64,000 nt of DNA from Blepharisma japonicum (Eukaryota; Ciliophora; Heterotrichea; Heterotrichida; Blepharismidae): the NCBI GenBank assembly GCA_949751835.1, contig CATKHK010000004.1:682001-746000 (forward strand), read 5' to 3'. The position numbers were made by a program, and so were the translations under genes. How positions within the stretch are numbered: the first letter of the stretch is position 1; every line of letters begins with the position of its first letter. The notes under the pieces are model-generated. The model ran no database searches. It had not been told where the DNA came from and worked only from the letters and a program-made list of their open reading frames with translations. Positions 18,535-64,000 of the stretch are shown in pieces.

Positions 18535-18605
18535 TGTCGATGCTGGGAATCTAGTCCAGGTACTTACGGCCACAACGTAAGATTCTACCACTAAACTACA
18601 CCGAC
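18535..18605 (-). tRNA. tRNA-His (GUG), with aberrant T arm; possible pseudogene
   Basis: 71 nt cloverleaf on the minus strand. The acceptor stem GTCGGTG/CATCGAC pairs over 7 bp with one G-U, discriminator A. The D arm has the A-box TAGTTTAGTGGTAGA including G18G19. The anticodon stem TTACG/CGTAA closes loop TTGTGGC, anticodon GTG (His), U33 present. The T arm is CTGGA-CTAGATT-CCCAG: it can form, but its top pair is A-C and the loop reads CTAGATT instead of the near-universal TTCGANN, so the internal B box is also broken. No 3' CCA is encoded. Either a tRNA pseudogene or an unusual tRNA; structure otherwise is good. Confidence 0.75.
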
Positions 18606-59681: not shown

Positions 59682-61307
59682 ATGTCTATTAACGTCCCAT
59701 TTCAGTTTGACCTCATGGTTTTCCCTAAAATGCATCAAAACCTCCTCAGTCTCTATTCAAAGCCTCCAGAAAACAAAGAAAACGACTCTTCCTCCAGTGA
59801 GGCCCAACAAATAGTCCATCTTCCTACCATAAATGGCAAATATCTTCTATTTCTCCCTTTCACTGGCCCTCGTAAGCGTTTTACTGCTACAACTCCTGGT
59901 TACTACTACAAATGTATGGGAGACGTCTCTCTTATTCGTAGAACCTGTGAAGAAAACGGTCTCAGGGAGCACAAATCTGAATGAAGAGTTCTCTGAGGTA
60001 ACAAAAATATGCGAAGCAATGTATATACAGGCTTAGCTAGATGGCAAAAAATCAATCATTTTCCTCGGAGCTTTGAAATCACGAAAAAAGACTGTTTATT
60101 TAAAAATATTGCAAAAATGCAAGCTTTGCATGGAATCGATCAGTTTGGCTTTATCCCTGAAACCTATGTGCTGCCTAATGAAACTTATGCATTGGAGCAG
60201 CAGATGTTGGAGGACCCAGGGATAATGTGGATTATAAAGCCATCAGCTAAATCACAAGGGAAAGGGATTTATTTGACCAATAAGCCAGCAGAGCTACCAT
60301 CTGGGCAAAGTTATGTGGCTTGTAGGTATATTGATAATCCTTTATTAATCAACGAGCTGAAATTTGATTTAAGAATTTACGTCGCCGTCACAAGCCTCGA
60401 CCCTTTGCGAATCTACATTTACAAAGAAGGACTCGTAAGATTTGCTACTGAAAAATACAGAAGAGGCCAAATAGATAACCGATTTGTCCACCTGACTAAT
60501 TATTCAGTCAATAAATTTTCACCGAACTTTGTAAGCGTAGACGAAGACGGACAAGGCCACAAATGAACCCTTACAGCCCTCAGAGAATATTTTAAATCCC
60601 ATAACCAAGATTTCAGCTTAATCTGAAGCAAAATCAAAGACATTGTGGTAAAAACCATAATTTCTAACGAATCCAAAAACTATGCAAGTATGAAAATGTT
60701 TGTCCCGTATCGGCAAAACTGTTTTGAATTGCTTGGGTTTGACATTTTAATCGACGACTCTTATACACCCTGGCTATTAGAAGTAAACCTTTCTCCATCC
60801 CTTAATACAGATTCTCCTTTAGATTTGAGAATTAAAGGAAAACTTATAGCTGATCTTTTTAATTTAGTAGGAATCCCAGCGAAGCAGAAAAATGCAAAAA
60901 AAAGTAAACCAGTAAGGAAACCTGCTTGGAATTCTTCAACAATTTCTGCAAATACTCAATTTGAGCTGTCTCCAGAAGAAATATATGTATTAAAAGAAAC
61001 TAATAATGAACTACAAAGACTAGGGGATTTTGAAAGGATTTTTCCTAGTGAATTATCTTTTGTGTATATGCCTTATTTTGAAGAAGAAAGGACTATGAAT
61101 CTGCTGGTTTGTGGAGAACTTGATAAAGCAAAAAGACAGCCTACAAGAAGCGCTGAAAAAGCCTTTTTAGGAAATGTTTATCGACAAAGGTTAAAACCGT
61201 TGACAAGAGAAAGAAAAAACAAGCCTAATTCAGCTGCCTATTTAAATCAAGCTGAAAGATACTTGCGACAACAAGTTTTTAAGCCGAGTATGTTAAATCC
61301 TATATAA
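59682..61307 (+). CDS. Tubulin glutamylase, TTLL family
   Basis: 541 residues, four in-frame UGA as Trp (two at 59982 and 59994, others at 60564 and 60624), stop UAA. An ATP-grasp ligase that adds glutamate to tubulin tails. Seen: NHFPRSFEITKKDCLFKNI, then IMWIIKPSAKSQGKGIYL (ATP-binding), YIDNPLLINELKFDLRIYVA, VTSLDPLRIYIYKEGLVRFA, HLTNYSVNK, and CFELLGFDILIDDSYTPWLL followed by EVNLSPSL (metal binding). The wording is closest to the TTLL4/5 group. The basic tail may bind microtubules. Abundant in ciliates, where glutamylation tunes cilia and cortical microtubules. The gene ends 21 nt from its convergent neighbour. Confidence 0.93.
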
Positions 61308-62813: not shown

Positions 62814-63530
62814 CTAATATTTGGATAAATAGTGCCTGAGAGGGTAATAGTCAAGAGGCCCAGGGGTGTCTGCTTTAGCAAAATCAATTCTTTTGCCACC
62901 CTGAGGAATGACAGCTTTAGGGGATTTTTTTCTTAGATATTCTGGGTCAGTTTCATAAGACCCAGGACCAGGGCTGATTTCTCTGATATCGTTAAGCCTT
63001 CTTCTTTCTCTATTAAATGTGGCTGCACCTGCTGGATAAGAAAAATCTGAAAGCAAGTTTAAATCTTCCCCTTTCAATGAGCTGAAAACGCTGCTTTCAT
63101 TTTTCTTTCTTTTTAAATTCGCATAAGACAGCCTGTATTTCCCTAAATCATATTCGCCTGAACTCATTGGCTTATAAGATGACACTTTTATAGGCTTCTT
63201 TTCAGCTTTAGGAGAGTTATTCAAGTCAATTGTTGCTATTTTTGGCTGTTCTAACCTTTCGTATGAGTTATAGGGAGATGTAAAAGGTGAATTCAAGGTA
63301 TTTGCGGTCGTCAGTTCTATCGACTGGCTCCAAATGACGTTAATCATGTTTTCAATGATCACCTTTAAATTTTCTTTGAAGCTTTCTTTCTGGACGTTCG
63401 GCTTATTTTCATACACTTTGGATAAAAGGCTGAAAATTGCGTCATAGTGCCCATCGGTTTCTAGTTCTTTTAAAGTCTGCATGATACTTGCATAACCATT
63501 AAGCTGGGAATATAACTTAGTTTTCGACAT
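62814..63530 (-). CDS. PG-rich (SHIPPO/STPG-like) axonemal-type protein
   Basis: 238 residues, single exon. A helical start of about 80 residues (TLKELETDGHYDAIFSLLSK) precedes a Ser/Pro-rich middle. The C-terminus has two PG-rich units: ISPGPGSYETDPEYLRKKSP and ADTPGPLDYYPLRHYL, the STPG repeat of sperm tail and ciliary proteins, where such repeats line the inside of doublet microtubules. Its start lies about 100 nt after the thioredoxin reductase stop on the same strand, with the SECIS element between. Stop UAA 15 nt before the next gene's start. Confidence 0.8.
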   Translation of the reverse strand: MSKTKLYSQLNGYASIMQTLKELETDGHYDAIFSLLSKVYENKPNVQKESFKENLKVIIENMINVIWSQSIELTTANTLNSPFTSPYNSYERLEQPKIATIDLNNSPKAEKKPIKVSSYKPMSSGEYDLGKYRLSYANLKRKKNESSVFSSLKGEDLNLLSDFSYPAGAATFNRERRRLNDIREISPGPGSYETDPEYLRKKSPKAVIPQGGKRIDFAKADTPGPLDYYPLRHYLSKY

Positions 63531-63552: not shown

Positions 63553-63614
63553 ATAAAAAGCTCAGACATTAATTCCTCTATGAGGTTTGAAAAATGCCGT
63601 CACATGCTTTTTTT
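63553..63614 (-). promoter_or_regulatory. SECIS element (form 2), selenocysteine insertion signal
   Basis: Minus strand, in the 3' UTR of thioredoxin reductase. Helix I: AAAAAGC (63612-63606) with GCTTTTT (63561-63555), 7 perfect pairs. Core: GTGA (63603-63600) faces TGA (63564-63562), the non-Watson-Crick quartet. Helix II: GGCATT (63598-63593) with AATGTC (63570-63565), continued by TTC with GAA. Apex: AAA (63588-63586), then a mini-stem CCTC/GAGG closed by ATA, as in form-2 SECIS. The 5' quartet base is G instead of the usual A, a variant known in eukaryotes. All the required parts are in the right order. Confidence 0.87.
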
Positions 63615-63630
63615 CGATCAATCTTTTGAT

Positions 63631-64000
63631 CTAGCCTCAGCATCCGGTCTTTTCTGCAGTCCTTCCTGATCTCTTGGTGACTTCTATTTTTGTCAATTCT
63701 TCTGCACAAGTTGGATGAATTCCAACTGTCTGATCGAGGATTTCTTTTGTAAGGCCACACTTCATAGCAGCTGCGAAGCCTTGTAAAACTTCTCCTGCGT
63801 TGGGTCCTAAATAGTGTAATCCTATAACTTTTTCATTTTCAAGCTTGTTTGTCACTATTTTTCCGAAGCAATATTTTCCTTCTCTTGACTCTAAATAATT
63901 CCACTCCAGTGGCTTGAACATTGAATGGTACACTTCTACGTTATCGTCTCCATAAATTTCTATGGCTTTTTCCTCACTAAGTCCACAGCATCCATACTCA
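63631..64000 (-). CDS. TXNRD: Thioredoxin reductase, C-terminal part; selenoprotein (start outside window)
   Basis: 123 residues are visible; the frame continues past base 64000. FAD/NADPH enzyme that reduces thioredoxin. The wording follows animal high-Mr TrxR closely: [20 protein letters not shown], then the dimer-interface [20 protein letters not shown], then [20 protein letters not shown], with the His-Pro-Thr-Cys-Ala-Glu catalytic base region. It ends Thr-Gly-Cys-UGA-Gly then UAG (63631-63633). The UGA at 63637-63639 sits exactly where Sec lies in Gly-Cys-Sec-Gly tails. Although UGA is Trp elsewhere in this genome, the SECIS hairpin 16 nt downstream of the stop argues for Sec here; Trp would leave the tail without its redox residue. 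Confidence 0.93.

Follow-up and report, generated by a model that had tools for sequence, protein, structure and literature searches.

UGA in Blepharisma japonicum is read as tryptophan and, very probably, as selenocysteine at the active sites of a thioredoxin reductase and one glutathione peroxidase

Results

The thioredoxin reductase locus

The DNA analysed is a 64-kb stretch of the Blepharisma japonicum genome (C4:682001-746000; hereafter the window), and genome-wide searches were performed on 45.2 Mb in 224 contigs. The features of the window are listed in Table 1. At one end lies, on the minus strand, the 3′ part of a thioredoxin reductase (TrxR) gene. When the flanking DNA was added, its frame was found to run beyond the window edge to C4:747244, uninterrupted over 537 codons, with five TGG codons and a single TGA, which is the penultimate codon. 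The initial annotation, made from the letters of the window, had the gene ending in Gly-Cys-UGA-Gly-UAG, and this ending was borne out. A SECIS-like hairpin follows on the same strand. The ATG of the next same-strand open frame, in which no Pfam family was found, lies 24 nt past this element, which places the element within a 100-nt intergenic gap.

Table 1. Coordinates of the features in the window
Feature	Position	Strand	Details or basis
Four tandem receptor-like genes, 1165-1204 aa	27103..43897	plus	15, 13, 14 and 18 in-frame UGA
Tubulin-tyrosine-ligase-like gene	59682..61307	plus	4 in-frame UGA
Next same-strand open frame after TrxR, 238 aa	62814..63530	minus	ATG at 63530
TrxR coding sequence, 3′ part	63631..64000	minus	ends GGA TGC TGA GGC TAG (63645-63631); UAG 63633-63631
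Penultimate codon of TrxR, UGA, putatively read as selenocysteine	63637..63639	minus	alignment to PDB 1h6v and listed relatives
6-bp hairpin GATCAA-AAGA-TTGATC	63616..63631	minus	begins 5 nt after the putative Sec UGA, overlaps UAG by one base
SECIS-like element, form 2, 58 nt	63555..63612	minus	sequence, grammar scan, structure evaluation
Helix I, AAAAAGC/GCTTTTT, 7 bp	63612-63606/63561-63555	minus	
GTGA	63603-63600	minus	opposite TGAG 63564-63561 (3′ TGA 63564-63562)
Helix II, 6 bp, U.U mismatches above	63598-63593/63570-63565	minus	
Apical AAA	63588-63586	minus	exactly 11 nt after GTGA
Mini-stem CCTC/GAGG	63585-63582/63578-63575	minus	

UGA at tryptophan positions

Within the window, 23 frames of at least 200 aa are open when UGA is read as Trp, and they contain 92 TGA and 103 TGG codons (195 Trp codons), in agreement with the dozens of in-frame UGA codons noted earlier; because the frames were picked as open under this reading, the count alone proves nothing. 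The four tandem genes, of which the first, the sole copy scanned, has an ANF_receptor domain, favour UGA (60 UGA versus 26 UGG), while the other 19 frames contain 32 UGA versus 77 UGG. Although the tandem copies are 45-69% identical to each other and not near-identical as first described, the UGG/UGA interchange described between them is real. With UGA masked in their alignment, the cells paired with UGA (179, counted as ordered pairs) held 104 UGA, 30 UGG and 45 others, so that UGG fills 30 of the 75 non-UGA cells and Leu, with 11, is the commonest after it.

Three of the four UGA codons of the tubulin-tyrosine-ligase-like gene (residues 101, 105 and 315) align with Trp in TTLL6, whereas the fourth (residue 295) faces Arg. 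A UGA also occupies a conserved Trp position in the Sec synthase SepSecS (C173, L030, downstream exon from 1828), where IWPRIDQK of PDB 3hl2 corresponds to VV[UGA]TRIDQK. SepSecS itself thus requires UGA to be read as Trp at IW(P)RIDQK, and Sec synthesis therefore depends on the Trp reading. The frames end in UAA or UAG, and the accessible text of one study gives UGA as Trp in B. japonicum with no genuine-looking UGA stop (PMC4967479). Introns of 15 nt were read by eye in SepSecS and SelT; the genome agrees in this with the 15-nt introns and the UGA = Trp code reported, in the available part of the paper, for Blepharisma stoltei (PMC9942806).

The Rdx matches other than SelT do not look like selenoproteins but show UGA/UGG interchange. 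Four Rdx-like proteins (L062, L066, L067 and L068) share H-x-[Trp]-C-T-x-H; two of them encode its Trp by UGG, the other two by UGA.

The terminal UGA of thioredoxin reductase

The TrxR could be aligned through the last residue with the thioredoxin reductase of PDB 1h6v (594 bits). The UGA aligns with the residue that precedes the final Gly. The PDB entry has Cys there; the same position is Sec in mammalian enzymes according to the accessible text of PMC4967479, and by alignment the codon thus occupies the place where the family has Sec. Relatives were taken from the best 120 of 4418 matches, one of which is the database copy of this same TrxR, leaving 119. Among these listed relatives, 118 end in Gly-Cys exactly before the UGA position, one reads Gly-Cys-Gly, and none has Trp there. 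The 17 most similar are 59-76% identical, with the C-terminal ends compared without their stop codons, and our guess is that they are ciliates. Within the genome this TrxR is the sole close match found, and the seven other reductase-like matches are stretches of 28-38% identity without TGA.

As UGA means Trp elsewhere in the genome, it might do so in TrxR too; the enzyme would then end in Gly-Cys-Trp-Gly and be impaired or use another centre, and the hairpin downstream would be a product of chance. The listed relatives argue against this, both in lacking Trp at that position and in ending, with one exception, exactly before the codon. A stop at this UGA would instead leave TrxR two residues short. 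The database copy (P0002, 535 aa) does end before the UGA, with the last two residues missing, but such a cut is what a standard-code gene finder makes.

The SECIS-like hairpin after thioredoxin reductase

The hairpin has a layout that we take to be that of a form-2 SECIS, and the initial annotation had described it as a complete one. The 7-bp helix I, the GTGA/TGA quartet, the AAA apex and the mini-stem are all present as described, but helix I begins 18 nt past the UAG, in the 3′ UTR, and not 16 nt, and helix II is to be corrected to 6 bp plus U.U mismatches. A SECIS grammar written for this analysis from general SECIS features recognises the element, with its R-UGA/GA quartet and apical AA in the TrxR 3′ UTR; Rfam does not, and the covariance-model scan that had been proposed gave no SECIS match at the hairpin up to E = 10. 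The grammar has 11 matches on both strands of the window, the TrxR element included, and 82 matches in 1.28 Mb of first-order Markov sequence, which corresponds to about 0.01 expected per 3′ end scanned; at this chance rate, a scan of 45 Mb would give thousands of matches. The 96-nt TrxR 3′ region has an unremarkable folding energy (z = -0.95), and the SECIS fold, at -9.7 versus a minimum of -11.4 kcal/mol, is not the minimum-energy fold. Since Rfam, fold energy and z-score do not single out the hairpin, which is a point in favour of Trp in TrxR, the SECIS call rests on motif geometry and position.

A further hairpin, with a stem of 6 bp, lies between the UGA and the SECIS-like element. Such hairpins follow 2.0% of window positions and 2 of the 92 Trp-UGA codons, and none follows the glutathione peroxidase UGA described below. 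The hairpin is reminiscent of codon-redefinition hairpins and, as a lead only, is a possible aid to redefinition of the codon.

UGA and GTGA are separated by 33 nt in TrxR and by 379 nt in the peroxidase. The former is shorter than the 51-111 nt of the SECIS model cited in the accessible text of PMC4967479, and this counts against reading the TrxR codon as Sec, the explanation that we prefer; the same closeness is reported there for Condylostoma.

A second candidate among the glutathione peroxidases

Eight glutathione peroxidase (GPx) genes were found in the genome, seven with the catalytic Cys and one, on contig C59, with UGA. The active site of the C59 GPx reads VACE[UGA]GLTTKNY, and in an alignment with a peroxidase of known structure the UGA lies opposite Cys. 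Its 3′ UTR contains a SECIS-like element, AAACT-AA-GTGA-A-AGCCATTGC-TAAAATATAT-GTGGTGGTT-GGAG-AGTTT, of which helix I starts 6 nt and GTGA 13 nt after the UAA. The grammar recognises this element and the SECIS fold is its minimum-energy fold; Rfam gave no SECIS match at the hairpin. It had been supposed that Trp must give way only at the TrxR codon. The C59 GPx provides a second SECIS-linked active-site UGA, and that restriction does not hold.

The grammar was applied to the 3′ ends of 14 genes, over a stretch reaching from 20 nt upstream of the stop to 150 nt downstream of it. Matches were obtained for both active-site-UGA genes (TrxR and the C59 GPx) and for none of the 12 others (the seven Cys peroxidases, SPS, SelT, eEFSec, SBP2 and SepSecS). 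Because the two elements were already known from inspection when the grammar was written, the result of 2/2 versus 0/12 is corroboration and not a blind test.

The recurrence in GPx of an active-site UGA together with a hairpin argues further against Trp in TrxR. The GPx also speaks against UGA as a stop in these two genes, since it would be truncated at its catalytic residue, 366 nt before the real stop. In the available parts of the literature, assays suggest that B. japonicum eRF1 recognises all three stops (PMC4967479), and B. japonicum is said to use the standard code (PMC6879139). Weighed against the Trp meaning of UGA and the lack of genuine-looking UGA stops reported for this species in the first of these papers, termination at these two codons is extremely unlikely.

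The Trp codons of the two candidates are all UGG (5 UGG and 0 UGA in TrxR, 1 UGG and 0 UGA in GPx), as compared with 92 UGA of 195 in the window. A selenoprotein-specific avoidance of UGA for Trp was considered and rejected, since other genes behave alike: the seven Cys GPx paralogues and SPS have no UGA-Trp after the first Met, and TGA is likewise absent from the part that was matched in each of the seven other reductase-like sequences.

Selenocysteine machinery

The initial annotation had made its proposal depend on tRNA-Sec and eEFSec, and both are present in the genome; SepSecS, an SBP2 homologue and selenophosphate synthetase (SPS), which it had also suggested looking for, were all found. 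The tRNA-Sec scored 75.6 bits versus a cut-off of 47 and has the anticodon TCA (UCA). The other nine tRNA-Sec matches were below the cut-off, and seven of them were classed by ARAGORN, six as tRNA-Ser and one as tRNA-Leu. The best PDB match of the eEFSec is eEFSec (454 bits), and its score against the bacterial selB model, 234 bits, is just below the cut-off of 242.25. SepSecS scored 425 bits to PF05889 and has SepSecS as its best PDB match, and the SBP2 homologue (306 aa) scored 79 bits to PDB SBP2 versus 23 to eL8. The SPS (324 bits to PDB 5l16) is a Cys form and was not counted as a selenoprotein, nor was SelT, which is also a Cys form (CQSC), given removal of a 15-nt intron by eye. No PSTK was identified in the genome, where introns or divergence may hide one; the lone weak candidate is KTI12 (255 bits; PSTK models below cut-off). 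The retention of the Sec machinery is another argument against Trp at the TrxR codon, which on all of this evidence we consider very improbable.

The tRNAs competing for UGA

Six tRNA-Trp genes were found, all identical. Their anticodon is CCA, and owing to an A27.C43 mismatch the anticodon stem is reduced to 4 bp. A tRNA-Trp homology search of the genome recovered only these six CCA copies. A short-stem tRNA-Trp(CCA) is reported in Blepharisma in the available part of PMC13092985. With this tRNA, the Trp reading of UGA is near-cognate. It had been claimed that a Trp-tRNA reading UGA must be out-competed; the contest with Sec stands, but the tRNA that was found for Trp is no cognate reader of UGA.

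With a UCA-tRNA pattern 63 matches were obtained, versus 107 in the reversed control, and in 62 of the 63 no tRNA was found (30 by ARAGORN; 32 by ARAGORN and Rfam). The remaining match is a real UCA tRNA on contig C204 (L083/L086). This tRNA was not counted as nuclear because the contig looks mitochondrial: it is 14.8 kb long, and the 1.5-kb stretch that was read has 24% GC and a nad4-like gene for an NADH-dehydrogenase-type membrane protein. A second tRNA pattern gave 16 matches, comprising the six CCA genes, the C204 tRNA and nine without a tRNA (ARAGORN; Rfam for eight of the nine). No nuclear tRNA-Trp(UCA) was found with these patterns, which tRNAs with introns or unusual T-loops would escape. 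Within reach of the patterns used, no nuclear UCA tRNA other than tRNA-Sec was found.

The window also contains a tRNA on the minus strand (18535-18605) with the anticodon GTG by eye, His-like and with an odd T-loop, which scored 49 bits in Rfam and was missed by ARAGORN. This miss weakens the negative result for a nuclear tRNA-Trp(UCA).

Discussion

The sequences indicate that UGA, normally Trp in this genome, is very probably Sec at the active sites of TrxR and one GPx. That UGA carries both meanings, as initially proposed, is supported by the UGA codons at Trp positions, by two active-site UGA codons with SECIS-like elements and by the machinery; the genomic evidence for the dual reading is good. 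Taken as a whole, SECIS-guided Sec insertion at these two codons, with a cognate tRNA beating the near-cognate Trp-tRNA, is the explanation that we hold with high confidence. The SECIS in the very short 3′ UTR of the TrxR or C59 GPx mRNA would recruit SBP2 and eEFSec, eEFSec would bring Sec-tRNA(UCA) to the active-site UGA, and the fully cognate Sec-tRNA(UCA) would win the codon from the near-cognate Trp-tRNA; TrxR and one GPx would in consequence contain selenocysteine. We infer the binding of SBP2 by the hairpins, the insertion of Sec and the competition of tRNAs as the decider. A variant compatible with this explanation, in which Sec and Trp are both inserted at SECIS-linked UGA in a ratio that shifts with the selenium supply, is possible though doubtful. 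Mixed insertion would be expected wherever a near-cognate Trp-tRNA competes with Sec-tRNA, but the cognate tRNA-Sec is predicted to dominate if eEFSec is loaded.

With both competing tRNAs known, the question is recast as one of near-cognate Trp versus cognate Sec. In this single genome, where UGA has two amino-acid meanings, it is possible to name the competing tRNAs, two SECIS-like elements and the majority of the Sec factors, which makes this competition at one codon directly measurable. There are also consequences for annotation: gene sets translated with UGA as Trp misname the active site of a selenoenzyme, and standard-code gene sets cut selenoenzymes off, as in the shortened database copy of TrxR.

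A broader suggestion, which we offer tentatively, is that the upkeep of selenoproteins shapes the reassignment of UGA to Trp, with a near-cognate short-stem tRNA-Trp(CCA) reading Trp and tRNA-Sec remaining the sole cognate reader of UGA. Genomes with Trp and Sec from UGA would then lack a cognate tRNA-Trp(UCA), because such a tRNA would invade the SECIS-linked codons. The Blepharisma genome fits this suggestion as far as tested. From the available parts of the published descriptions, Blastocrithidia and Amoebophrya fit as well, and so does Condylostoma save for one predicted tRNA(UCA) of low score. A counter-example may be Euplotes, where the amino acid besides Sec is Cys. The use of UGA for Cys and Sec in Euplotes was reportedly described by Turanov et al. 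in 2009.

The initial annotation took a Trp/Sec split in a heterotrich to be new. It is not: for Parduczia and the heterotrich Condylostoma magnum, the accessible text of Swart et al. 2016 describes a 'codon triality' of UGA, namely Trp, stop, and Sec with a SECIS (PMC4967479). A supplementary legend of that paper concerns an alignment of thioredoxin reductases; MMETSP1395, which the paper keys to 'bjaponicum', is among the entries, and the UGA is said to lie shortly before the SECIS. Insofar as the text available allows the comparison, the Blepharisma genome resembles these two ciliates in having UGA as Trp and Sec, in the enzyme concerned and in the SECIS shortly after the codon, and it has tRNA-Sec(UCA) in common with C. 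magnum. It differs in that UGA is also a stop in C. magnum and Parduczia, while the frames here end in UAA or UAG, and it goes beyond that description in the GPx as a second gene and in the factors documented from one genome. No description of a Blepharisma selenoprotein set or of a Sec GPx from Blepharisma was found in the accessible main text of the papers covered. The phenomenon is thus already known, and Blepharisma is a new, well-documented case. What is contributed here, all from one genome, is another selenoprotein candidate, the greater part of the factor set and the two tRNAs in competition.

Other systems can be compared from the available parts of the papers. In Stentor coeruleus all seven peroxidases are Sec forms (PMC7409322), as against the one UGA in eight genes found here, so that the two genomes differ. 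Blastocrithidia, a trypanosomatid, uses UGA for Trp and Sec, both within SelTryp; its selenoproteins are SelK, SelT and SelTryp, and UAR is reassigned as well (PMC12153298, 2025). In Amoebophrya ex Karlodinium veneficum, UGA is Trp, three genes are likely to use it for Sec, and tRNA-Sec is the sole tRNA reported for UGA (PMC6394959, 2019); the short-stem tRNA-Trp is shared with it also (PMC13092985). Amoebophrya is, however, a syndinean dinoflagellate in which all three stops are reassigned and the Sec genes are selT, selM and selO (PMC6394959). In Euplotes, as in Blepharisma, one codon has two amino acids, one of them Sec, but the other is Cys instead of Trp (PMC12153298, PMC4695839).
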